Source: Phycisphaerales bacterium
Lineage (GTDB): Bacteria; Planctomycetota; Phycisphaerae; Phycisphaerales; SM1A02
Length of the DNA stretch: 64,000 nucleotides
Direction of reading: 5' to 3'
Assembly (NCBI GenBank): GCA_022447205.1
Contig: JAKVBQ010000008.1
Span: 16,453-80,452 of the forward strand
Below the pieces are notes generated by a model. That model was not told the origin of the DNA. It worked only from the letters and a program-made list of their open reading frames with translations, and searched no databases. A program made the position numbers and the translations under genes. Of this stretch, positions 9,510-22,007 are shown one piece after another (position 1 is the stretch's first letter; the number at the start of each line of letters is the position of its first letter).

Positions 9510-10532
9510 TCAGCCCATCCGCTTGACCAGGGCGTCAGCGAAGCCATCCGTCGACAACGAGCCGCCAAGGTCGCCAGTGGTCTCACCATCCTTCAGGCAG
9601 GCGTCGTAGGCCTCCCGGATTCGGACCGCGGCATCACGTGCGTTCTCGTCCTGGTGCAGACGGTGCAGGTGGTTCAGCATCATCACCGAACTCATGATGA
9701 GGGCGAGCGGGTTGGCGATTCCCTTGCCAGCGATGTCCGGGGCCGATCCATGGACGGCCTCGAAGACCGACTGTTCGATGCCATGATTCGCTCCCGGCGT
9801 GCAACCGAGTCCCCCCACCAGTCCGGCACAGAGATCGCTGAGCACGTCACCGTAGAGGTTCTCGCAGAGGATGATGTCGAAGTCCTCCGGGTCCTGGACG
9901 AGTCGCATGCAGCCGGCATCGATGATTCGTTCGTCGTACTCGATGTCGGGATAGGACTCGCTGATCGCACGGGCGCTGTTGATGAACATGCCGTCGGACA
10001 GTTTCATGATGTTCGCCTTGTGGAACACCGTGATCTTCCTGCGATCGCGTTCGCGCGCATACTGGAAGGCGAATTCCGAGATCCGGGAACATGCGCGTTC
10101 CGTGGCGACCTTCAGCGAGGTGACCACGCCGTCGGTGATCTCGTTCTCGATGCCGGAATAGAGGCCTTCGGTGTTCTCCCGGACCACCACGATGTCGACG
10201 TCATCGAACCGGGTCTTCACCCCGTCGAGATTGCGCACCGGGCGGACCGCGCCGTAGAGATCGAGCTTCTTCCGGAGGGCGACGTTGACGCTGGTGTACC
10301 CACCGCCGATCGGAGTCGTGCATGGCCCCTTGAGGGCGACCCCATGCTCCCGAATCGCATCGACGGTCGCCTTGGGAAGCACCGAATCGTGCCCCTGCTC
10401 GACCGCACTCGCCCCGGCGAGATGCTCCACCCACGTGACGTCCGCCCCACTGGCATCGACCACCTTCCGAGCCGCACGGGCGACCTCGGGACCAATGCCG
10501 TCTCCAGGAATCAGAACGCAGGTATGTGCCAT
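9510..10532 (-). CDS. isocitrate dehydrogenase, NAD-dependent type
   Basis: 340-residue beta-decarboxylating dehydrogenase. Motifs: PGDGIGPEV (9-17), VRENTEGLYSG, FHKANIMKLSDGMF (Lys/Asp of the active site), NLYGDVLSDLCAGLVGG and VFEAVHGSAPDIAGKG. The ENTEGLYSG phosphorylation-loop region and the FHKANIMK motif point to NAD-dependent isocitrate dehydrogenase (oxidising isocitrate to 2-oxoglutarate) rather than 3-isopropylmalate dehydrogenase, though the two are close and homoisocitrate dehydrogenase is a further alternative. Start at ATG 10532 has GGAG six bases upstream. It leads the operon with the hydrolase and lipoprotein and is divergent from the FAD oxidoreductase. Confidence 0.88.
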   Translation of the reverse strand: MAHTCVLIPGDGIGPEVARAARKVVDASGADVTWVEHLAGASAVEQGHDSVLPKATVDAIREHGVALKGPCTTPIGGGYTSVNVALRKKLDLYGAVRPVRNLDGVKTRFDDVDIVVVRENTEGLYSGIENEITDGVVTSLKVATERACSRISEFAFQYARERDRRKITVFHKANIMKLSDGMFINSARAISESYPDIEYDERIIDAGCMRLVQDPEDFDIILCENLYGDVLSDLCAGLVGGLGCTPGANHGIEQSVFEAVHGSAPDIAGKGIANPLALIMSSVMMLNHLHRLHQDENARDAAVRIREAYDACLKDGETTGDLGGSLSTDGFADALVKRMG

Positions 10533-10653
10533 GGTTGCTCCATCGCGCCGCCTCGGCGCCGCGTTTCAAGGCTGCTCAGGATACCATGGGGGACACCTCG
10601 ACTCCCGGATCGATCCGGAATGAGCGTCCAGCAGCAGCGGCACCCCACTCCCG

Positions 10654-11874
10654 ATGAGCACACCACCAAGCAAGGTCATCAAGCTGGACGCGCTCGTCAT
10701 CGGAGGCGGAGTCACCGGACTCTGGACCCTCGACAGACTGGTCGCAGCGGGACACGACACGGCACTGGTCGAACAGGACGCACTCGGTCAGGGGCAGACG
10801 ATCTGCGCCCAGGGCATCCTGCATGGCGGCACCAAGTACTCGCTCAGCGGTTTGCTGGCGCCGGGTGCACGACAGGTCGCGGAGATGCCGGATCGATGGA
10901 AGGAACACCTCGAAGGCGCCAACGCACCCGACCTCGGCCAGGTTCGGGTCAGAAGCGAGGCATGCCATCTCTGGCGGACCGATTCGATGAAGTCGATCAT
11001 CAGCATGGCCGGGGCGAAGGTCGCGCTGCAGGTCAAGCCGGAACCGCTCCAGAAGCATGAACGGCCCGCGGTCCTCGCCGGCTGCCCTGGCGACGTTGCT
11101 CGGCTTCCGGAGCTGGTCCTCGAGATGCCGAGTCTCCTCGAGACACTGGCCGCCCTTCACCCGGGGCGGATCATCAGGGGCAGGGTGGAGTCCGGGACCC
11201 CCACCGACGGAGAACATCACCGCTCGGCCGTCACCGTCGCCCTCGGTGAAGAGAAGATGCTCATCAGCGCTCGCTACGTGATCCTCTGTGGCGGCACCGG
11301 CAACGAGGACCTCCTCAGGATGTTCAGTCCCGATTCCTTGCCAGTGGCGATGCAGCGACGTCCGCTGCACATGGCGATGGTCAAGGGGGCTGACGACGCC
11401 CTGCCCGAATTGAACGGCCACTGCGTCGACGGAGCGAAGACACGGGTCACCATCACCAGCTCGACGGCTTCGGACGGCGAACGGGTCTGGCAACTGGGGG
11501 GCGAACTCTCCGAGATCGGATGCGGACGAGGCGAGGATGAGCAGCGAGCGGCAGCAAGGGCGTGTCTCAGGGCCACCCTGCCCGGTTTCGACGTGGACGA
11601 CGACAGGCTCAAGTGGGGCACGTACCGGATCGACCGGGCCGAGCAGGACAAGCATCCGGCCAGGAAACGGAAGTCCCGACCCGACGACGTCACCATCACC
11701 AAGGCGGGCGGTCTCGTCATCGTCTGGCCCACCAAGATGGTGCTCGCACCACGCGCGGCAAGACAGGTGAGCCACCTCTTCGAACCGGGCACGGGAGCTG
11801 GCGCGCCACCGTTCCCCGATCAGTCGCCCCCTCCGATCGCGAAACCTCCCTGGGAGACGGCGACATGGCACTGA
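10654..11874 (+). CDS. FAD-dependent oxidoreductase (DAO family)
   Basis: 406-residue flavoprotein. The N-terminus has the dinucleotide-binding ALVIGGGVTGLWTLDRL with the acidic end of beta 2 at ALVEQ, followed by GQTICAQGILHGGTKYSL, similar to the GlpD/DAO superfamily where GQGQT..A.G..H.G contacts the flavin. The C-terminus has TITKAGGLVIVWPTKMVLA, the second FAD contact. Its substrate is not clear: glycerol-3-phosphate or 2-hydroxyglutarate oxidases share this layout. Its last ten bases overlap the start of the aldo/keto reductase, so the two are co-translated and may act on the same metabolite. No Shine-Dalgarno is obvious before ATG 10654. Confidence 0.8.
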   Translation: MSTPPSKVIKLDALVIGGGVTGLWTLDRLVAAGHDTALVEQDALGQGQTICAQGILHGGTKYSLSGLLAPGARQVAEMPDRWKEHLEGANAPDLGQVRVRSEACHLWRTDSMKSIISMAGAKVALQVKPEPLQKHERPAVLAGCPGDVARLPELVLEMPSLLETLAALHPGRIIRGRVESGTPTDGEHHRSAVTVALGEEKMLISARYVILCGGTGNEDLLRMFSPDSLPVAMQRRPLHMAMVKGADDALPELNGHCVDGAKTRVTITSSTASDGERVWQLGGELSEIGCGRGEDEQRAAARACLRATLPGFDVDDDRLKWGTYRIDRAEQDKHPARKRKSRPDDVTITKAGGLVIVWPTKMVLAPRAARQVSHLFEPGTGAGAPPFPDQSPPPIAKPPWETATWH

Positions 11875-12635
11875 ACGAGCTCGGCAGCACTGGCCTGCAG
11901 GTCTCACGGCTGGGATTCGGCGCGTTCAAGATCGGCCGGAACCAGAAGACCAAGTACCAGACTCACTACGACCTCCCCTCCGATCAGGCGGTGCACCAGC
12001 TGCTCGACGGGGTCCTCGACTGCGGCATCAACCTGTTCGATACCGCCCCGGCCTACGGTGAGAGCGAAGCAAGGATCGGACGGTACCTGCGCGAGTCGGG
12101 CAGACGGGACGAGGTGGTGCTCTGCTCCAAGGTCGGGGAGACCTTCGAGGACGGGAGCTCAAGCTATGCCTTTGATCGGTCCTCGGTCGAGCGCTCCCTC
12201 GACACCAGCCTCGAACGGCTCGGTACCGGCCACATCGACCTGGTCTCGGTGCACTCCGATGGCAAGGACCTGGACATCATCAGGCGGAGCGATGTGCTCG
12301 AGGTCCTCGAGGAACGTCGGGCCCGCGGGGAGGTCCGGGCGATCGGTTTCTCCGGCAAGACCCTCGAGGGTCATCTGGCGTGCCTCGAGGCGGAGCATCC
12401 CATCGACGTGCTGATGGTCGAGCTGAATCTTCTTGAGCAAAGCCAGCTCCCGATCCTCGCCCCTGCCGCCGAAGCCGGCGTGGGCATCCTGATCAAGAAG
12501 GGGCTCGCCTCCGGGCGTCTGGAGGCCTCAGAAGCCCTGCCATGGCTTCTCTCGCATGAGGCGATCGGGAGTGTCGTCGTCGGGGGGCTGTCCCTGGACC
12601 ATGTCCGGGCGAACCTCGTCCACGTCCCGGGCTGA
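11865..12635 (+). CDS. aldo/keto reductase
   Basis: 256-residue NAD(P)H-dependent oxidoreductase with a TIM-barrel layout. The catalytic tetrad can be read: Asp and Tyr in LFDTAPAYGES, Lys in LCSKVGE, His in VSVHSDGKD. Ends with SVVVGGLSLDHVRANL, the usual nucleotide-contact region. At 256 residues it is shorter than the usual 280-330, lacking part of the C-terminal loops. Start at ATG 11865 begins MALNELGSTGLQVSRLG, the standard family N-terminus; it lies inside the last codons of the FAD oxidoreductase (10-bp overlap). Substrate unknown. Confidence 0.88.
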   Translation: MALNELGSTGLQVSRLGFGAFKIGRNQKTKYQTHYDLPSDQAVHQLLDGVLDCGINLFDTAPAYGESEARIGRYLRESGRRDEVVLCSKVGETFEDGSSSYAFDRSSVERSLDTSLERLGTGHIDLVSVHSDGKDLDIIRRSDVLEVLEERRARGEVRAIGFSGKTLEGHLACLEAEHPIDVLMVELNLLEQSQLPILAPAAEAGVGILIKKGLASGRLEASEALPWLLSHEAIGSVVVGGLSLDHVRANLVHVPG

Positions 12636-12672
12636 ACCCGACGGGTCGCGGAGCCGTTCGATGACCCGAAAC

Positions 12673-14007
12673 TCAGCGGGTGGGGATGACCAGGACCATG
12701 TCGACCTTCAAGTCACCGGGATCCGACCCGATCTTCGCACGGTTGGCCTCGTAGATCAGCTCCCAATGGCGAGCCTCTCCGTAGTGGGCCTCCGAGATCG
12801 AGGACAGGCTTTCACCCGAACGAACGATGTGAGTCCCTGATCCGATCTTCACCGGCGCAGGCCTGGTGTTCTTCGGGGGAAGCATCAGGACCTGCCCGAT
12901 CGAGAGACGATTCGGGTTGATCGCCGGATTGGCCTCCGCGATCAGTATCCAGGAGGTCTCGTTGCCGTAGAAGGCATCCGAGATCGAGGTGAGGGTGTCA
13001 CCCTCCTTGACCGTGTACCGGGTCATCGCGGTGTTGCTCGCCACGGGTTCGATCGGCCGAGTCACCTCGGGCGCGGAGGTCGGGGCTGGCGCCTCCGGCT
13101 TGGAAGGCACGGTGGTGGTCGTGGTGAGTACCAGCGTGTCATCTCCGGCACCCTTGATGGGCCGTTCCGGTTCGATGTTCAGGACGTTTGCCTTGACGAC
13201 GAGCATCGAGTCACCAAGGATCGCTTCACGGATCTCGCCGGCCTGCGCCTCATCGATGAAACCGGAGATCCTCATCGTCCCGGAGGCCTCATCCAGCCCG
13301 GAAACGGAGACCACGGTGTCCTCGACCAGAATCGCACACGGCCGGGTGGCATTGCGTGCCGCAAGGCCGCGAATGAGTCGATTGGTCGGCTCATCAAAGG
13401 TCAGTTCGAGCGAGGTCCAGGCATCACCAGTCTGCTCGTCGATACCGACGAGGTCGAGGGAGCGGGACGTCGATGGCACCAACGCCTTGCTCGGGAGGGT
13501 GTAGAGGAGCATCTGAAGACCGGTCTCATGCCGTTCCACGACGAGTCCGTATCGTTCCTCGAAGTACCCCGCCGGATCCGCTCCGAGCGCACGGCTCGTC
13601 ATGCCGGCCTCAGCGAAGACCGAGGCATCGTAGATCGGGAACCAGGCGGCGATTCCACTGCGGAAGACCTCGGGGCCCTGCTCGCGCAACTTCTGCCGCA
13701 ACTCCGCGAGATCCACGCCGACCGGGTTGGATGCCGGCACCGCGACACGGAAGGCAACGCTCGAACTGGCCAGGACCGGTGTCGTCTCCGCGACTGCCGG
13801 GGGAGACGCCGCCTCGACCGGCGCGCCCTCGAGGGCGATCGTCGGTGCGGACACGGGTGTTTCATCCTGTTCGGCTCGTTCCGGCTCGATGACCAACGAC
13901 TTCGACCCCTCGGACTCGTCACCACCGGTGACCGCGAGGTAGTAGAAGCCAGTCGTCATGAACGCGACAACCAGCACCACGATGAAGATCCGACCACCTG
14001 AAGACAT
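12673..14007 (-). CDS. membrane-anchored SecD P1-like / double LysM protein
   Basis: 444 residues. An N-terminal hydrophobic segment (about 6-26) acts as anchor or signal, followed by a Pro/Ala/Glu-rich linker. Residues about 85-290 match the first periplasmic region of the adjacent SecDF in order: AAWFPIYD against ARWFPIND, GADPAGYF against EADPAGYF, MLLYTLPSKAL against LLLYVTPEKSM, RPCAILVEDTVVSVSG against QPMAIILDGQVYSAP, then the ISGFIDEAQAGEIREAIL repeat of GSFSAEEISYLIRVL. Two LysM domains (about 330-377 and 393-442) end the protein and should bind peptidoglycan. SecD transmembrane helices are absent. GGAG precedes ATG 14007. It is the last gene of the tgt-yajC-secDF run, 166 bp after secDF. 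Likely wall-tethered partner of SecDF (inference). Confidence 0.85.
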   Translation of the reverse strand: MSSGGRIFIVVLVVAFMTTGFYYLAVTGGDESEGSKSLVIEPERAEQDETPVSAPTIALEGAPVEAASPPAVAETTPVLASSSVAFRVAVPASNPVGVDLAELRQKLREQGPEVFRSGIAAWFPIYDASVFAEAGMTSRALGADPAGYFEERYGLVVERHETGLQMLLYTLPSKALVPSTSRSLDLVGIDEQTGDAWTSLELTFDEPTNRLIRGLAARNATRPCAILVEDTVVSVSGLDEASGTMRISGFIDEAQAGEIREAILGDSMLVVKANVLNIEPERPIKGAGDDTLVLTTTTTVPSKPEAPAPTSAPEVTRPIEPVASNTAMTRYTVKEGDTLTSISDAFYGNETSWILIAEANPAINPNRLSIGQVLMLPPKNTRPAPVKIGSGTHIVRSGESLSSISEAHYGEARHWELIYEANRAKIGSDPGDLKVDMVLVIPTR

Positions 14008-14173
14008 GAGCGTTCTCCGGAGTATGTGACGTCAAGGCCTGTCTGAACGAGCCAACGTGCCCACATCATACGAGTGCGGGCCGATCTTCGCTGGCAGGCC
14101 CCTCCGCAGCCGTCGGTTTGTCCACGAGACAACCGGGCGTGGTCACGCCCGGCACTCGTCTCGAGTGGTCGGA

Positions 14174-17100
14174 TCAGTCGGTTTCGGCTGCCGCGTCCGT
14201 CTCTGAATCGCTCTCGTAGGTCGTCGACTGGTCCTTCCGACGGAAGACCATCGGAGCCGCGATGGCCACCGAGGAATACGTCGCGGCCACCAGGCCCACG
14301 AGGAAGGTGTAGGCGAACGGCCGGATGCCGGTTCCGCCGAGGACGAGGAGGATCATCGCGGTCACGATCGTGGTACCACTGGTCAGCACGGTACGGCTGA
14401 AGGTCTGGTTGATCGAGAGGTTGATGCATTCCTTCGAGGCATAGGGCAGGCGGCCCTTGTTCTCGCGAATACGGTCCAGGATGACGATGGTGTCGTTCAG
14501 GGAGTATCCGATGATCGTCAGGAGGCCCGCGATGACGTTCAGGTCGATCCTGAACTCCTCGATGTGGAGGGCGGAGGCCCATGGGGTCGAGCCCACCATC
14601 ACACTGATCGCGAGCGCTCCCAGGCAGACCGACACGTTGAAGCAGAGGGCGGTCACGGCGGCCAGCGAGTACCAGAGGTTGCCGAACCGCACCCAGATGT
14701 AGACCAGCATGCCGAGGAGACTGAGGATCACGGCCACGATCGCGCTGGCCACGAGGTCCTGCGCCACGGTCGCCGAGAAGCTGGAGACCTGTTCGAGGCT
14801 GGCCTCACGAGTGAGGGCGTTGGAGAGCAGCTCCCACTCGCGCCGGGCGAGCTGGGAATCCCAGGTCTCGAGGTCGACCTCGAATGAGCTGAGCGAGTCG
14901 TCCGACACGAGGATCGCGAAGTCCGAGTGGGCACCGGCCTCACCGGTACCGGAAAGTCCGATGACGCGGCTGCGTCGGCCCAGCGCGTCGGAGAAGTCCG
15001 GCTGGGTCCGCATGCGCTGGATGCGCTCCTCGAGATCGGCGGCGGTGATCGCGGGTTCGACATCCTCGAGCAGGACGAGCACGCCGCCCCGGTAGTCGTC
15101 GACGCGCTGGGTCAGCCCCTCGCGACCCAGGCATTCACCGACCGTCGCCTTCTCGAGCGAGAAGGTCCTGCTGGTGTGGCGATCATCGCCCTCACCGCTG
15201 AAGTGGACCGGCCTGGTGACGTTCAGCTGGTCGGCGAACGTCTCGACCACGGCGGCGACCACGGCACCCTCGATCGCGTCCTCGTCGGTCGCGTCCGGCG
15301 GATTCGCGACCTTCACCTGGAAGGCGCTGGAACCGACGCCCGCTGTGGTCTCACCCGAGGTGAGAACGGTCGCGTTGCCGAGCTGGCGAACGGGGGAATC
15401 CTCCGGAGCGGCGGCGGCCACGGCCTTGAGGCGGGCACGGACGTCCTCCAGCTGAAGAGCGAGTGATCCGTCACTGGTCGCAGGCTCACCCTCCTCGGCC
15501 ATTCGCGTGGACATGGTCAGGCTGACCCCGCCACGGAACTCGGTCTCGAGCATGTCGTTGCCACGCCCGAAGAAGAGGGAGAGGCCGACGATCGCGAGGA
15601 CCAGCGAGAAGACCTGGAAGACGTGCCGCCATCGAATCCAGTCGATGCTCGGCTGCAGCAGGCGGTGGATCGCGGGAATGATCACCGGCAGCATCAGCCC
15701 CGGGAACTTCCTCGCACCGAAGCCCTCGATGACGATGTCGAAGATCAGACGCGACACGAAGAGCGTGGTGAACAGGGTGCCCAGCACACCGAGCGACAGG
15801 GTCAGGGCGAAGCCCTTCACCTCGGTGACCGCATACTGATACAGCACGAAGCAGACGATCAGGTTGGTGATGTTGCCGTCGAAGATGGCGCTGGCGGCCT
15901 TCTTGTAGCCGAGGCGGACCGCGACCCGGAGGTCCTCCTTGTTGTTCACCAGCTCCTCGCGGATGCGTTCGTAGACGAGCACGCTCGCATCGACCGCCAT
16001 GCCGACGGTGAGCGCGATGCCGGCGAGGCCGGGCAGCGTGAAGGTGCCGTCGATCATCGCCATGATGCCGAAGATCATCAGCGCGTTGAGACACAGCGCG
16101 ATGTCCGCGACCAGCCCGGCGAAGAAGTAGTAGCAGAGCATCATGATCGCGACGACGATCACCGCGAGCATGACGGCCTCGAGACCCTTGCCGAGGTTGT
16201 CGGCACCGATCGAGGGGCCCAGCACGCTGGTCGAGATCGGTTCGGGGGACAGCCGCGCCTCGAGAGCGCCGGCGGCAAGGACGCGGATCAGGTAGCTGAT
16301 CTCCTCGGCGGAGAAACTGCCCTGGATGATGCCTCGATCGGAGATGCGGCTGTTCAGGTTCGGAGCGCTGTAGACCTGGCCGTCGAGGATGATCGCCATC
16401 GGCTGGTCGATGTTCGGAGCGGTGAGCTGACTCATCAGTCGCCCGCCGTTGGTGTCGAGGCTGAAGCCGACGGCGTCACGTCCGAGGTCGTCGGGCGTGC
16501 GGTAGGTCCGCTTCATCGACCACTGCTCGCCGTTCTCATGGGTCATCGACTTCTCGGGGGTCACGTAGAGCAGCAGGTAGATCTTGCCGTCACGTTCGCC
16601 GGCGACGAGGCCCCGTGGAGTGAAGTAACCGGCGGGATCCGCCTCGAGAGCAGCAAGCTGCTCCGGGGTGTCCGCCCACTGCTTGAGATCGTTGATCGGG
16701 AACCACCGAGCCACCGCGGAGTCGGTGTTTCGTGCGCCCCGCTCCTCGAGCTGCGTGCGCATGTCGTCGGGGTTCACCCCCTGAGGGTCGTTCACGGTGA
16801 CCGCGATGCGGTACTCGAGGACACCCGCGCCCTTGAGCATGCGCTTGAGGTCCTCCGGATCATCAAGGCCACTGCGGACCGCCTCGTACTCCCCGTAGGT
16901 CTGGAGCAGGCCGTCAAGCGCGTTGGACAAGTGCGGGAACTCCATGCGGAGCTCCTGGATCTGTTCCGCCCGACGGGAGGGCATCTCGACCACCACACCG
17001 TCCTCGATGGTGGTCCGCGGATCGTTGGGGAGCATCAGGACCGCCTGAACGCGCGCCTCGGGAAGTCGGGCCGCGAGCAGGGACGCCTTCAGTTCATCCG

Positions 17101-17671
17101 CCCTCAGTTCCGCGCGAGCGATGCGATCCTGGAACGCTTCGATCATCGCGGGAGCGAAGTCATCGGACTGCAGCATCGTGTTGAGCTGCTCGCGCGTCGT
17201 CTTGCTTTCGGCATGGAGGCCCTGAAGGGTCTCGAACTGAGCGATGCGATCGGGGTCCTCACCACCGAACCTGCTGGCGGCCTCGCCGAGGTCGAGGGCG
17301 GTCATGAGTTCGGACTCGCTGATCACCGACTGGGCGATCAGGTCCTTGAGCTCGGACTGGAACGCTTGCTGCCTGACCCGGACCTCGGGACTCGGCAGTG
17401 GCATGACGATCTCGATCCGGTCAAGCCCCTGGGGCTGGAAGGCGATGTCGAGGATGCCCTGGGGATTCACGCGCTGCTTGAGCACGTCGATCACCTGCGC
17501 GAGCACCTCGTCGCGATTGGCCTCACCCGGGATGTTCACGGCATAGACGAGGCTGACACCACCGCGAAGGTCCTTGCCGAGACGGATCTTCTGTTCGGGT
17601 GGAACGACGGACCACACACAGATGGTGATCACGGTCGCGATGAGCAGCAGTTTCGAGATGACGCCTTGCAT
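14174..17671 (-). CDS. secDF: protein translocase SecDF fusion
   Basis: 1165-residue single-chain SecD-SecF, the proton-driven export booster of the Sec translocon in the inner membrane. SecD half (1 to about 660): TM1 near 6-24, KDLRGGVSLVYAV, a large P1 region, and TM cluster with GMAVDASVLVYERIREEL. SecF half (about 690 to 1140): TEFRGGVSLTM, a second periplasmic domain, and GYSLNDTIVILDRIRENKG. Both halves keep their signature TM4 motifs. The P1 region is longer than in E. coli SecD, with extra helical material at about 70-270. Co-directional with yajC upstream (103 bp gap) and the SecD-like LysM gene downstream, the classic tgt-yajC-secD-secF order. Confidence 0.96.
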   Translation of the reverse strand: MQGVISKLLLIATVITICVWSVVPPEQKIRLGKDLRGGVSLVYAVNIPGEANRDEVLAQVIDVLKQRVNPQGILDIAFQPQGLDRIEIVMPLPSPEVRVRQQAFQSELKDLIAQSVISESELMTALDLGEAASRFGGEDPDRIAQFETLQGLHAESKTTREQLNTMLQSDDFAPAMIEAFQDRIARAELRADELKASLLAARLPEARVQAVLMLPNDPRTTIEDGVVVEMPSRRAEQIQELRMEFPHLSNALDGLLQTYGEYEAVRSGLDDPEDLKRMLKGAGVLEYRIAVTVNDPQGVNPDDMRTQLEERGARNTDSAVARWFPINDLKQWADTPEQLAALEADPAGYFTPRGLVAGERDGKIYLLLYVTPEKSMTHENGEQWSMKRTYRTPDDLGRDAVGFSLDTNGGRLMSQLTAPNIDQPMAIILDGQVYSAPNLNSRISDRGIIQGSFSAEEISYLIRVLAAGALEARLSPEPISTSVLGPSIGADNLGKGLEAVMLAVIVVAIMMLCYYFFAGLVADIALCLNALMIFGIMAMIDGTFTLPGLAGIALTVGMAVDASVLVYERIREELVNNKEDLRVAVRLGYKKAASAIFDGNITNLIVCFVLYQYAVTEVKGFALTLSLGVLGTLFTTLFVSRLIFDIVIEGFGARKFPGLMLPVIIPAIHRLLQPSIDWIRWRHVFQVFSLVLAIVGLSLFFGRGNDMLETEFRGGVSLTMSTRMAEEGEPATSDGSLALQLEDVRARLKAVAAAAPEDSPVRQLGNATVLTSGETTAGVGSSAFQVKVANPPDATDEDAIEGAVVAAVVETFADQLNVTRPVHFSGEGDDRHTSRTFSLEKATVGECLGREGLTQRVDDYRGGVLVLLEDVEPAITAADLEERIQRMRTQPDFSDALGRRSRVIGLSGTGEAGAHSDFAILVSDDSLSSFEVDLETWDSQLARREWELLSNALTREASLEQVSSFSATVAQDLVASAIVAVILSLLGMLVYIWVRFGNLWYSLAAVTALCFNVSVCLGALAISVMVGSTPWASALHIEEFRIDLNVIAGLLTIIGYSLNDTIVILDRIRENKGRLPYASKECINLSINQTFSRTVLTSGTTIVTAMILLVLGGTGIRPFAYTFLVGLVAATYSSVAIAAPMVFRRKDQSTTYESDSETDAAAETD

Positions 17672-17774
17672 GGTGTCTCGGTCGATCCTTTGGTCGAGCG
17701 TTCCGTGGCCGGACAGTCAGGTGGATACCGGCAGCGGAGGCTCTGGGTGTTTGGTCCGGGTGGAGCCGGCGGAT

Positions 17775-18203
17775 TCAGTTTCCGCTTCCTGCCCCTTCAA
17801 GAATGGCATCGATGTACTGACGGTCGAGCGTGATTCGTGTGTCACGGGATTCATCGACCTTGATGACCAGCTGGTCATCGTTGGCCTCGACGACGGAACC
17901 GATGATGCCACCACGAGTACGAATACGATCGTGCTTCACGACCTGCTGAAGCTGCAGGCGACGCTTCTTCTCGCGTCGACTGCTCATGAACGTGATGAAG
18001 ACGAAGAAGATCAGGATCGGCAGGAGCATGAACATCAGGCTCGGTGGCTGCGGTTGTGCCGCACCGTTCGCTCCACCCTGGGCGCCATCGGCAGCCGTGG
18101 CCGTGGCCGCCGGTGCGTCCCCGGCCAGGGCCGGAACCTCGGCCCCCTCCTGCAAGGTCGTCAGGACAAGAACTGGAATGTCTGAGTATGAAGAGGCTGT
18201 CAT
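17775..18203 (-). CDS. yajC: preprotein translocase subunit YajC
   Basis: 142-residue Sec accessory subunit. An unusually long Ala/Gly-rich N-terminal part (about 55 residues) precedes the single transmembrane helix (LMFMLLPILIFFVFITFM) and the conserved cytoplasmic domain SRREKKRRLQLQQ...VKHDRIRTRGGIIGSVVE. YajC is usually near 110 residues, so the N-terminal extension is odd. I place the start at ATG 18203 (AGGA nine bases upstream); an in-frame GTG at 18230 would add nine residues. It sits between tgt and secDF as in many bacteria. Confidence 0.9.
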   Translation of the reverse strand: MTASSYSDIPVLVLTTLQEGAEVPALAGDAPAATATAADGAQGGANGAAQPQPPSLMFMLLPILIFFVFITFMSSRREKKRRLQLQQVVKHDRIRTRGGIIGSVVEANDDQLVIKVDESRDTRITLDRQYIDAILEGAGSGN

Positions 18204-18241
18204 GGATGTTCCTGAACCGTCGTCACTCACAAATCGTCACA

Positions 18242-18266
18242 AGAGGCCCACGAGAGCCTCTTTTTT
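18242..18266 (+). terminator. terminator-like hairpin facing the plus strand
   Basis: AGAGGC (18242-18247) and GCCTCT (18256-18261) pair across an 8-base loop, followed by a T6 run. The U-tract is on the plus strand, yet both neighbours (tgt and yajC) are on the minus strand. It may stop antisense transcription into tgt, or be just a hairpin in the tgt-yajC leader. Confidence 0.4.
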
Positions 18267-18304
18267 CCCAAACCGAAGCCCGGACCCGACCGGATCCCAG
18301 GTGT

Positions 18305-19483
18305 TCAGTCCCCGTTTGAGGAGCCCTGAACCAGGACGGGCCAGCCCTCGGCAAGGGCAGACCACGAATCATCCCGGATCGCCCTCCGGATGTCCAGCAG
18401 CAGGCTTTGATAGTGGCAGAGGTTATGCAGGCTGGTCAGGGTCTGCCCCAGCCACTCATCCGCCATGAAGAGATGCCTCAGATAGGCCCTGCTGTAGCCA
18501 GAAGCGCAGACAGGACACTGGCATCGAGGATCGATGGGGCCGGGATCCTCGGCAAATCGAGCATTCTTGAGGCGCAAGGACCCCTCTCTGGTGAAGGCAT
18601 AGGCCTTCCGGCCGTTCCTGGTGGGCAGGACGCAGTCGAACATGTCCACGCCAGCGGCCACCGCCCGGACGATGTCCCGCTCGTACCCGACACCCATGAG
18701 ATATCGGGGCTTGTCGTCGGGCATCATGGCCGCGGTGGTGCGGACCACCTCCTCGATCTGCTCGGGGCTCTCCCCCACGGCAACGCCACCGATGGCGAAT
18801 CCGGGGAGATCGAACGCGCAGACCTGCTCCACGCTCCGCTGCCTGAGGTCGGGATCGGTCCCCCCCTGGATGATCCCGAAGAGCGCCTGCTCGTCACGCC
18901 GCTGGTGGGCGGCAATGCAGCGCTCGAGCCAGCGCGCGGTGCGATCGGTCGCGATCTCGAGCCGCTGCCGATGGGTCATGCCCTTCAGGCGGACCCGCTT
19001 CTCGGGATTGATGCACTCCTCCTCCCGGGAGGGCGGACAGTCATCGAAGGCCATGATGATGTCGGCACCGATGCGCTCCTGGACCTGGATCGAACGTTCC
19101 GGTGACAGGTGGACCTTCGATCCATTGACGAAGTTGGCGAACGTCACCCCGTCCTCGTCGATCGAGTTGATGTCCGCCATGGAGAACGCCTGGTAGCCGC
19201 CGGAATCGGTGAGGATCGGACCGTCCCATCGCATGAATTCATGCGAACCACCCATCGCCGCAACGCGCTCGTCACCCGGGCGGATCATGAGGTGGTAGGC
19301 GTTGTTGAGGATGATCTGCGATCCCGTCGAGCGCACCTGTTCGACGGTCAGGCACTTCATCGCGGCCGCGGTCGCGACCGGCATGAAGGCCGGGGTGTCG
19401 AACCCGCCGTGCGGCGTCTCGACCCGACCCAGACGGGCGGCATTGGTGGTGGTTCGCGCACTGATCGTGAATGAGAGTGACAT
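18305..19483 (-). CDS. tgt: queuine tRNA-ribosyltransferase
   Basis: 392-residue tRNA-guanine transglycosylase, which swaps guanine-34 in GUN anticodons for preQ1. Catalytic parts: TDSGGYQ (Asp93 general acid/base), GIIQGGTD, and DMFDCVLPTRNGR (279-291) holding the nucleophilic Asp. Zinc site: Cys320, Cys322, Cys325 (CQCPVC) with a His near 351 in SLHNLCHY. Length is normal. It is the second gene of the minus-strand export block, 17 bp after the rhomboid protease stop, and precedes yajC as in E. coli. Confidence 0.96.
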   Translation of the reverse strand: MSLSFTISARTTTNAARLGRVETPHGGFDTPAFMPVATAAAMKCLTVEQVRSTGSQIILNNAYHLMIRPGDERVAAMGGSHEFMRWDGPILTDSGGYQAFSMADINSIDEDGVTFANFVNGSKVHLSPERSIQVQERIGADIIMAFDDCPPSREEECINPEKRVRLKGMTHRQRLEIATDRTARWLERCIAAHQRRDEQALFGIIQGGTDPDLRQRSVEQVCAFDLPGFAIGGVAVGESPEQIEEVVRTTAAMMPDDKPRYLMGVGYERDIVRAVAAGVDMFDCVLPTRNGRKAYAFTREGSLRLKNARFAEDPGPIDPRCQCPVCASGYSRAYLRHLFMADEWLGQTLTSLHNLCHYQSLLLDIRRAIRDDSWSALAEGWPVLVQGSSNGD

Positions 19484-19500
19484 GCCGGATCAAGGCCTGC

Positions 19501-20700
19501 TCAGCGTTTCGATGACTCGCGGAGGATCCGTTTCTCCTTTGAAGTGAGGCTTTGGAGCCCCTTCTCATGGATCTTGGCGAGGATCCGGTCGATTTCCGCA
19601 TCCATCCTGGCCTCGGCGGCCGCACCGGCCTTCGCCCCCTTGCCGAGCCGACGATTCCGGGCGGAGCGACTGGTCGGATCGACTCGCCCGAGGAAGTCGA
19701 AGAAGCCGTGCAGGTGGTGCTGCCGGCGGATGAAGTAGAACCCGGCGATCGCGCCACCGAGGTGCGCGGCCTCGCCACCGGCATTGGACCCGTAGGTGTC
19801 GTTGTTGAAGATGAGGGTCAGGAGGGCGACCACGACCAGACCGTAGGCGAGGGTCACCAGTCGGATCGGTATGAGGAAGAACAACAGGACCATCAGGTTC
19901 GGAGCGAGATACGCCCCTGCAAGCAGCACCCCGAAGACGCCGGCACTCGCACCGATCAGGGGCACCTGCGGATCGTTGAAGAGCAGGAACGGCGCCGACA
20001 TTCCGAACATGCCGAGCGCCGCACCACCCGCGTTGAGCAGGAGGTACATGCAGGCGCCGAAGATGCCGCACAGCAGGTAGAAGGCGAGGAACCGCTTGCC
20101 TCCGAGATGCCGTTCCACGAGCGGACCGAAGATCCACAAGCCGAACATGTTGACCAGAAGATGCCAGAAGTCGGCATGCAGGAACTGGAACGTGATGAAC
20201 CGCCAGAATTCACCGCCGACCAGCTGCCCGGTGGATGTCGTGCCCACCAGGGCGCGGGAGGTCGAGAAGTAGCCGATCCGCTTGAAGAACGGCATGTTCT
20301 GGTAGAAGGCCTGGCCGATCTTCTTGTCGCCGGCATAGATGTCGCGATACCCCTGGATCAACGGAACCGCGGTCATCTGGCGCCCGCCCTGTCGGGGAAG
20401 GGTGTAGTTGGGTGCCTGGTCCAGGGGCGGCATGAATCGGAGGGTCTGTCCGGACAGGTTCGGCCCGGCCCCATCCGGACCGGCGAAGAGCACGCGGCCG
20501 ACACTGGTCCATGCGCCGGGTTTCTGCAGGGCCGCCACCGAGGGAGCGAGGAAACCATCGACCAGGTGGACGCCCACGCAGATGATGATGATCCAGATGG
20601 TCACGCTCAGCCCGCGCGCACCGGCCATCGCCCCCGCACCTGACCCGCCTGGACGTCGAGGTTGTCCTGTTCGTACCCAATCCCGGTCGTAGACACCCAT
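19501..20700 (-). CDS. rhomboid-family intramembrane serine protease
   Basis: 399 residues. Catalytic Ser252 in GASAGVFG and His313 in AAHLGGAIAGF form the rhomboid dyad; FQFLHADFWHLLVNMFGLWIFG is the family loop and TM2. TM1 is near 33-50, followed by a long periplasmic loop (about 55-165) that is larger than in GlpG and contains no known domain. The C-terminal about 65 residues are basic and helical, probably cytoplasmic. Cleaves membrane proteins within the bilayer; substrate unknown. Upstream gene of the tgt-yajC-secDF run. Confidence 0.9.
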   Translation of the reverse strand: MGVYDRDWVRTGQPRRPGGSGAGAMAGARGLSVTIWIIIICVGVHLVDGFLAPSVAALQKPGAWTSVGRVLFAGPDGAGPNLSGQTLRFMPPLDQAPNYTLPRQGGRQMTAVPLIQGYRDIYAGDKKIGQAFYQNMPFFKRIGYFSTSRALVGTTSTGQLVGGEFWRFITFQFLHADFWHLLVNMFGLWIFGPLVERHLGGKRFLAFYLLCGIFGACMYLLLNAGGAALGMFGMSAPFLLFNDPQVPLIGASAGVFGVLLAGAYLAPNLMVLLFFLIPIRLVTLAYGLVVVALLTLIFNNDTYGSNAGGEAAHLGGAIAGFYFIRRQHHLHGFFDFLGRVDPTSRSARNRRLGKGAKAGAAAEARMDAEIDRILAKIHEKGLQSLTSKEKRILRESSKR

Positions 20701-21316
20701 GGTGGCGCACTCTATCAGGTCTCCCCACCGCTGAGCGCCTCCAAACGGCGGCTCTTCGTGAAGGTGGCAATTCTGGGTGAATTCTCGTGCAACGACACCA
20801 GCGAAGGACTAGGGTGACCGCTGTGATCGGACCCTTGAGGGAGGGCCGTCACACACCTGATGTCCACGCGGCCGGGAACCGCGGGACATCGAAGACAATG
20901 CCGGGGGTCGGGAAGGAGCGAGGAGAAAGGGAGTCGAACAACTCGCATGCGTGAACGGTTCATGCGACCGTTTCCTGCACATCGAGACGCCATGCCGGCG
21001 TTGCGCTTCGCCCTGTCTGACGGGCCGAAGGCACCCTGGCCGGATGTCGAGGGGCACCATCCAGGTCGTTGGTGCCCCAGATCATCCTCGCGCCACCAGG
21101 CGCAGGCCGATCCTGTTCACTTCCATTTCGTTGATCTCGTCACGGACCCGGAGTCGTGCGTGGACACCATCCTTGCAATGCAGGGACGGTGGCCCTGTCG
21201 GTCCTCGGACCGGACAACGCCCCGATGCCACCCAGGCGGAGGGGCAGGGAGTCGTCGTTCGCCCACCCCGCATCGCCGGGTGGTTCGTTCGACGTGTGGA
21301 ATGAGGTCACGGAACG
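20701..21316. other. 616-bp gap with no supported gene
   Basis: The gap between the rhomboid start and the sorting-tail protein. Several open frames exist on both strands (for example 20860-21543 plus and 21117-21371 minus), but they are Arg/Pro/Ser-rich, lack ribosome binding sites, and one overlaps the following gene. One minus-strand frame ends in EINEMEVNRIGLRLVARG (stop near 21082), which recalls the C-terminal end of formylglycine-generating-type domains, so a decayed gene fragment is possible. No RNA gene motif was recognised. Promoters for both flanking genes should lie here. Confidence 0.5.
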
Positions 21317-21982
21317 ATGACGGCATCGTTGCGATCCATGAAGACCACCAACTGGGTGATCGTTGCGTCACTCGGGGCTGGCGGACCCACCGCGTTCACC
21401 TACGCCGACCTGGTGGAACGTCGGCCCGCTCACGCCCGGGTCGAGGCGATCCCGCCGCGACACGAGGTTCCCGGCGACGACCAGGACGCAGAGGGCGGAA
21501 TCGACTTCAACGACTTCGAAAGCGCGTTCTTCTCGGAATCTGACGACCAGGGCGCCATCGCACGCCTGCAGGTGAGGACCACCGGCGCGAGTCGCTTCGA
21601 ACTCGACATGGACCTGCACGTCGACCCCCCGCCCGGCTACAACCTGGAACTCGTCGACGACGATCCCGACGAGACCGGGCTCCTCGCGATCGAGCAGCCC
21701 GGAATCCTGTCGATCCACTCGAGGTCACTGGGACTGGTCGAGGGGGCGTCGATCCGGATCATCGACACCGTCAACGATCACGTGATGTCGTTCGTCCTGG
21801 ACATGGAGCTGGTCACGCTCGAGGTCCATCTCGATCCGGGGCTCTATCGGCTCCTGATCGAAGGCACCCTCGATGCAGGCGGACTCCAGAAGGAAGGCGA
21901 ACGAAGCAGGACGGTCTCGAGCCCGGGAACGATGTTGCTCCTGGGCGGCATGCTGACCGGTCTCAGGCGACGACGATCCTGA
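21317..21982 (+). CDS. exported protein with PEP-CTERM-like sorting tail
   Basis: 221 residues. A short N-terminal hydrophobic stretch (NWVIVASLGAGG) may be a signal peptide. The body is beta-rich, with Asp-rich spacers and no known domain. The C-terminus SPGTMLLLGGMLTGLRRRRS has the three parts of an exosortase-type signal: a Pro-containing motif, a hydrophobic helix and an Arg cluster, though the motif is PGT rather than PEP. No exosortase gene is in the window. Start could be ATG 21317 or ATG 21338; the second leads more directly into the signal sequence (MKTTNW). Surface or matrix protein by inference. Confidence 0.7.
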   Translation: MTASLRSMKTTNWVIVASLGAGGPTAFTYADLVERRPAHARVEAIPPRHEVPGDDQDAEGGIDFNDFESAFFSESDDQGAIARLQVRTTGASRFELDMDLHVDPPPGYNLELVDDDPDETGLLAIEQPGILSIHSRSLGLVEGASIRIIDTVNDHVMSFVLDMELVTLEVHLDPGLYRLLIEGTLDAGGLQKEGERSRTVSSPGTMLLLGGMLTGLRRRRS

Positions 21983-22007
21983 GCCCCCCTTCGCACCTGC
22001 ACCATCT

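Follow-up and report, generated by a model that had tools for sequence, protein, structure and literature searches.

The last gene of the secDF run in the window (the whole stretch of DNA that was analysed, 64,000 nucleotides from a Phycisphaerales bacterium) encodes a membrane-anchored LysM protein that carries a P1 head of the SecD type in the linker between its anchor and its LysM domains. Sequence comparisons establish the homology of this segment to the P1 head of SecDF, and the simplest source for it would be a copy from SecDF inside the same operon. The LysM gene behind secDF is older than the head graft; the LysM protein in this position seems undescribed and may be more important than the graft itself. 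The features concerned are listed below.

12673..14007, minus strand: gene of the P1-head/LysM protein, an open reading frame of 444 aa with the stop within the coordinates
13927..13989, minus strand: N-terminal membrane anchor, about residues 7-27, read off the sequence
13198..13773, minus strand: SecD P1-head domain, about residues 79-270, from BLASTP, profiles, the AlphaFold2 model and the fold search
12877..13017, minus strand: LysM domain 1, residues 331-377, Pfam PF01476
12685..12831, minus strand: LysM domain 2, about residues 393-441, one of two LysM stretches in Pfam, with limits read off the sequence
14174..17671, minus strand: secDF, the presumed head donor, identified with Pfam and NCBIfam, 166 bp upstream of the LysM gene
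16256..16813, minus strand: P1 head of SecDF, residues 287-472, the region homologous to the graft, from Pfam and BLASTP
17775..18230, minus strand: yajC, Pfam PF02699
18305..19483, minus strand: tgt, Pfam PF01702
19501..20700, minus strand: gene of a rhomboid-family protein, Pfam PF01694

The protein is arranged as membrane anchor, linker, P1 head, second linker and two LysM domains. A sequence-only reading had described 444 residues with an N-terminal anchor and two LysM domains, and the open reading frame and Pfam agree with it (LysM PF01476 at 61 bits against a cut-off of 20.9, in two stretches), the anchor being read off the sequence. The anchor pattern G..[KR]-stretch-Y[YFWL] was present in 56 of the 67 LysM open reading frames of the fetched loci. 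The same reading had placed the gene at the end of a rhomboid-tgt-yajC-secDF run; Pfam identifies the rhomboid, TGT and YajC, and the gene is the last of the run because the next one, encoding an aldo/keto reductase, lies on the opposite strand. Scans of positions 12300-21200 returned promoters and terminators at about chance level (1 versus 0.8 and 4 versus 3.0 in shuffles, respectively), and no tRNA genes were found in 10000-22000. The gap between secDF and the LysM gene contains an inverted repeat (14133-14152) of two perfectly matching 8-bp arms around a 4-base loop; it has no T run and was not called a terminator.

Four peptide pairs had been said to occur in the same order in the two proteins, and they do, at residues 120, 142, 167 and 222 of the LysM protein and 321, 343, 367 and 423 of SecDF. 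BLASTP against the SecDF of the window aligned residues 86-239 with 287-440, with 53 of 163 columns identical (33%) and an E value of 2e-18 for this one single comparison. In a Smith-Waterman alignment with SecDF, residues 78-285 scored 194, while 1000 shuffles gave a mean of 40 and a maximum of 69; as controls, the rest of the protein scored 53 against SecDF and the segment scored 32 against SecDF from residue 701 to the end. When the P1 regions of 46 SecDFs of the order were combined into a profile, it matched the window protein at E 3e-27, so that the profile comparison with SecD P1 was significant. The Pfam model SecDF_P1_head (PF22599) gave E 3.6e-4 and 20.8 bits, against a curated cut-off of 27. 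Among other carriers of the head it gave 17.4 bits in G001 and 40.7 bits, above the cut-off, in G033, and went unreported at E up to 1 in G013. At E up to 0.01, NCBIfam assigned the window protein to LysM-type families only, with no SecD family among them, and its secD model scored 31.2 bits for the G033 protein against a cut-off of 244.4. With the window protein as the query, its own genome gave three hits: the protein itself, SecDF and one more LysM gene.

The predicted fold points the same way. The AlphaFold2 model of residues 78-285 (pLDDT 87.7, pTM 0.86) is not independent of the homology, because 12 of the 17 alignment rows were SecDF. A Foldseek search of the PDB with this model ranked SecDF or SecD chains in all of the first ten places, nine with E values of 0.01 or lower; the TM-scores reached no more than 0.28-0.39, which means a loose superposition overall. 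In VIA-align, model residues 6-188 aligned to residues 112-247 of 3aqo with Z 10.0 and an rmsd of 3.9 over 130 residues, and the best unrelated chain reached Z 2.5. The comparison by structure prediction thus ended in a match to solved SecDF chains. A model of the g33 form of the head (G164 protein; again 12 of 17 rows SecDF) had pLDDT 68.7, falling below 50 at 1-4, 45-71, 76-85 and 190-201, and SecDF was still first at E 1.2e-5. Pfam at E up to 1 matched neither the P1 base (SecD_1st, PF21760) nor the membrane domain (SecD_SecF_C, PF02355) in the window protein, nor a rotamase or SurA_N domain. With the fold match limited to the P1 head and no base or membrane family matched, the graft is a P1 head. 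The first proposal, that a SecD P1-type domain was duplicated into a LysM protein, is therefore supported by sequence, predicted fold and neighbourhood for the head and not for the whole P1 region.

The neighbourhood of secDF was conserved well beyond the window. Of 61 genomes, 51 have a LysM gene that follows secDF in the same orientation, a count made up of the window, G013, 47 fetched loci, G042 and G046; G021 and G024 ended at contig ends and were left unjudged, and the loci of G048, G052 and G053 were unfetched. The best LysM match lay away from secDF in five genomes (G041, G045, G049, G057 and G060, of families f5 and f6), and in G045 no LysM gene followed secDF within the fetched region, the secDF loci of the other four being unfetched. 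In other orders and classes, all nine hand-picked loci encoded a membrane-anchored LysM protein downstream of secDF and on its strand; they were chosen because both hits sat on one contig and give no frequency for those groups; the gap was below 450 bp in seven and about 1 kb in two (G475 and G417). The secDF-LysM pair thus occurs across several orders and classes. Mostly headless proteins of this kind were seen behind secDF in many Planctomycetota (loci L033-L086, L273-L281, L283 and L284). An apparent SecDF-LysM gene fusion in G013 (a 1079-residue open frame) was discarded: SecDF is read in a different frame and stops ahead of the LysM start, so these are separate genes. It had been supposed that the gene would be kept next to secDF in related genomes. 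This holds for the LysM gene, while the head itself was found in four genera only.

These four genera, g1, g13, g33 and g55, contributed 17 carriers among 18 genomes (2/2, 4/5, 8/8 and 3/3, respectively) in a search of 181 genomes of the family with an alignment of four members as the query. The fifth g13 genome, which is 54% complete, gave no match. Whole-model matches to the P1-head/LysM protein came from ten other genomes, with near-complete ones in G160 and G161; the match in G162 was cut by its contig. The g55 heads are strongly diverged and were matched by the g33 profile at E 1.2e-15, 5.8e-15 and 2.3e-11. Most of the 181 genomes were covered by the genome search alone, which divergence of the g55 kind might escape. 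The carrier gene follows secDF in 16 of the 17 genomes, and in G162 the contig begins inside the gene. Outside the four genera, no head was among the matches listed for 400 genomes of the order, nor among those listed for 392 genomes of the phylum, where the only carriers in the draw were G000 and G013; about four candidates were scored per genome, a diverged head like that of G097 was missed by the same search, and strongly diverged copies elsewhere could be missed too. A scan of a wider contig collection yielded 79 loci, and the head-bearing ones are most likely the carriers already found.

We also considered that LysM proteins behind secDF might generally hide a diverged head, and this was unsupported in the sets tested. 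The SecDF P1 profile was significant in only three of 56 LysM open reading frames (window, G001 and G033), the later-found carriers being outside that set. Two group profiles run over 71 LysM open reading frames gave one non-carrier at E 0.96 and none lower, and among the open reading frames of 91 further loci no LysM protein other than those of carriers was matched at E up to 1.

As to origin, an older membrane-LysM protein behind secDF would have gained the head, most simply once, in an ancestor of the four genera. In a SecDF tree made without the P1 columns (57 rows) the carriers fell together with SH-aLRT 83, and in a reduced tree of 35 of these rows they did so at 91/79 and in 90% of 200 bootstrap trees. 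The tree holds 14 of the 17 carriers (G013, G162 and G163 were left out for their incomplete SecDFs), and SecDF sequences thus lend moderate support to the carriers being one group. Other grafts aside, the window head is closest to the SecDF heads of its own order (residues 7-181 of 208, E down to 4e-24), and as a single query it hit nothing below 0.1 among those SecDFs and free heads in the set that come from other orders and classes. The profile of the window's group matched SecDFs at 1e-32 to 1e-19 in its own family, 1e-17 to 1e-13 in other families of the order, 1e-13 to 0.002 in other orders of the class and 0.005 in another class. The source of the g33 heads is less clear than that of the window's group: mainly their second half matches SecDFs.

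It could be argued that the g1/g13 heads and the g33/g55 heads were acquired in two independent grafts, a question of origin that stands beside those of function. The two groups lie apart on long separate branches of the best P1 tree, the profile of one against the other is weak (E 2.7e-5, as compared with 2e-34 and 1.5e-11 for each against SecDF heads), and some free-standing heads match the g33 head about as well as SecDFs do. Against this, the carriers group together in the SecDF trees, the head sits at the same place in the protein, and one origin was not rejected (p-AU 0.274). We therefore regard two grafts as rather unlikely, with a real chance left to them.

Once in place, the head appears to have been maintained. 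Its dN/dS was 0.08-0.16 in six close, partly overlapping pairs, compared with 0.27-0.70 for the preceding linker (40-45 codons) in five pairs, the sixth being saturated; the LysM domains gave 0.06-0.22 in the six pairs and SecDF 0.06-0.09 in the five measured. These figures are rough, because some sequences occur in more than one pair and dS reaches at least 0.9 in four of the six; in two pairs at greater distance the head came out at 0.38, with dS exceeding 1.6. The values indicate a head under purifying selection yet faster-evolving than SecDF. Between the two species of one genus the heads are 38% identical, while their SecDFs are 80% identical outside P1. The most conserved stretch of SecD heads (DG.V..AP.L...I...G.I.G.F) is largely lost in the window's group, so binding may not be kept. 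It might be that the captured domain has been retained for its stiffness alone, as a spacer from membrane to wall that has no function in Sec. Such a role would suit the fast evolution of the head, the Pro/Ala-rich linker that headless relatives in nearby genera have at its position, and the g55 protein of G095, in which Pfam reports LysM only, though the g33-head profile still matches. The low dN/dS of the close pairs argues against it, though conservation of the fold alone could explain this, and the neighbour's own functional domain is an improbable choice for a chance spacer. We consider a mere spacer unlikely.

We tentatively favor, at somewhat less than an even chance, a model in which the SecDF translocon has this protein as a wall-anchored accessory, with a second head that would hold emerging chains or dock partners. 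Its anchor would be placed beside SecDF and its LysM domains, presumed to bind the wall, would grip peptidoglycan. Peptidoglycan is a plausible LysM substrate because the genome has two transpeptidase-domain genes. Another LysM protein of this genome (G000:C16:29873-32488), which matches both LysM repeats, is encoded about 1.3 kb from a transpeptidase-domain gene. A P1 head that has neither the P1 base nor the proton-driven membrane part would act as a passive second head, holding polypeptides that leave SecYEG/SecDF or docking the periplasmic chaperones that SecD's own head docks. Fixed to the wall and freed of the proton-driven part, it would hold or dock near the exit rather than pull, and export sites would be kept under the wall and chains handed on. 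In E. coli, cross-links connect the P1 head of SecD with PpiD, a chaperone anchored in the membrane, and the head is said, from E. coli and Vibrio work, to contain the substrate-binding cavity (PMC11470409). AlphaFold models put SurA on the SecD head (PMC9987972), and in a model given by a review the BAM complex of the outer membrane receives energy from moving periplasmic domains of SecDF (PMC8669966). The data support the domain make-up, gene order, likely origin and selection of the protein; its contacts and its binding we infer. Counting against an accessory role, besides the fast evolution of the head, the loss of its most conserved stretch and the Pro/Ala-rich linker of headless relatives, the adjacency of secDF and the LysM gene may be operon history only, and one family of the order (G045) lacks the LysM gene at this place. 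A loss of parvulin in carriers, with the head as its replacement, did not emerge as a clear trend: 11 of 15 genomes had PF00639, and the four in which it was not found were the carriers G013, G180 and G095 and the non-carrier G019.

The same domain could instead work on SecDF itself. As a regulator or decoy, the detached head would tune SecDF by wall contact, competing with the SecDF head for substrate, for chaperone or for the contacts between head and base. It is a derived copy of its neighbour's own domain in the same operon, and the part leading back to the P1 base is lost, as expected of binding without moving. We know of no head-head contact, however, which we count against such a regulator, and the sequence holds nothing that separates it from a holdase. 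This, too, seems improbable to us, to about the same degree as the spacer.

P1 heads also occur outside SecD elsewhere in the phylum. In 79 phylum genomes we found 19 open frames of less than 600 residues with a P1 head above the cut-off; 18 of these proteins were fetched, and none matched LysM at E 1e-4. Free-standing heads in other planctomycetes mean that the module is not unique. In G457 a Ser/Thr protein kinase (L255:1639-3348; Pkinase 155.6 bits) has a C-terminal P1 head (SecDF_P1_head 40.1 bits) and is possibly a sensor using the head of the export motor. P1-head proteins lie upstream of secDF, on the same strand, in G463 (L242:5130-6224, about 1.2 kb away, with the P1 base above cut-off too) and in G475 (L243:4319-5173, 56 bp away). 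A second SecDF-like open reading frame in G032, of 402 residues (L075:2558-3763), has a P1 head and no Pfam match to the SecD membrane domain. The window's genome itself has a further P1 head, which the Pfam head model picked up in a short lipoprotein-like protein on contig C12 (L238:4477-5025); such proteins, of about 155-183 residues, are encoded beside chorismate synthase (L238, L266-L272). They looked at first like a trait of carriers only (8/8 carriers and 0/7 others in the first set), an idea that was dropped when weaker relatives appeared in other genera. Strong orthologues (E below 1e-45) were found in 14 of the 181 family genomes, all carriers (14/17).

Such free-standing heads, among them the kinase fusion, the lipoprotein-like forms and the one in the window's genome, would suit an envelope function apart from Sec, the LysM protein merely lying behind secDF with its head turned to another ligand and P1 heads serving planctomycetes as a general extracytoplasmic binding module. 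We think this quite improbable, since the LysM gene stands behind secDF in most of the genomes compared as well as in loci of other orders and classes, and since the window head is closest to the SecDFs of its own order.

A broader form of the accessory model is that, across the Planctomycetota, a dedicated LysM subunit, widely encoded behind secDF, ties the SecDF translocon to the wall, and that in one clade the subunit acquired a second copy of SecDF's substrate-binding head and turned into a passive second head for the export motor. In this breadth the proposal is doubtful. A SecD head copied into the adjacent LysM protein suggests that this small group of planctomycetes may hitch part of the export machinery to the wall. 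To our knowledge, little is known beyond a few model bacteria of how export sites are positioned under the wall and of what receives chains after SecDF. The LysM protein behind secDF, with SecDF's own head in one clade, is a candidate for both the placement of export sites and the receipt of chains, and the clade offers a natural comparison, with the head in 17 genomes and the same gene headless in nearby genera.

No architecture of this kind had been known to the sequence-only reading. In the open-access literature we found no description of a SecD head in a LysM protein or of a LysM protein behind secDF; that part of the claim stands for the LysM fusion, and the P1 head outside SecD is not unique. 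Compared with SecD and SecDF (PF22599; PDB 3aqo, 5yhf and 5xan), the window protein is alike in the sequence and predicted fold of the head and differs by having no match to the P1 base or the membrane domain, so it would have no proton-driven motion of its own. It shares two LysM domains above the cut-off with LysM proteins (PF01476), from which it differs by its membrane anchor, its place behind secDF and the P1 head in its linker. The free-standing P1-head proteins of Planctomycetota likewise carry the head outside SecD, but the 18 fetched gave no LysM match at E 1e-4; two lie upstream of secDF, one is a kinase fusion and several are lipoprotein-like. Finally, PpiD and YfgM, described in PMC11470409 as membrane-anchored periplasmic partners of SecYEG and SecDF, are similar in being anchored envelope proteins thought to act at the translocon exit, a role that is conjectural for our protein. 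Unlike PpiD/YfgM as portrayed there, the window protein has no PPIase domain, and it itself carries the partner's head domain together with LysM domains for the wall.
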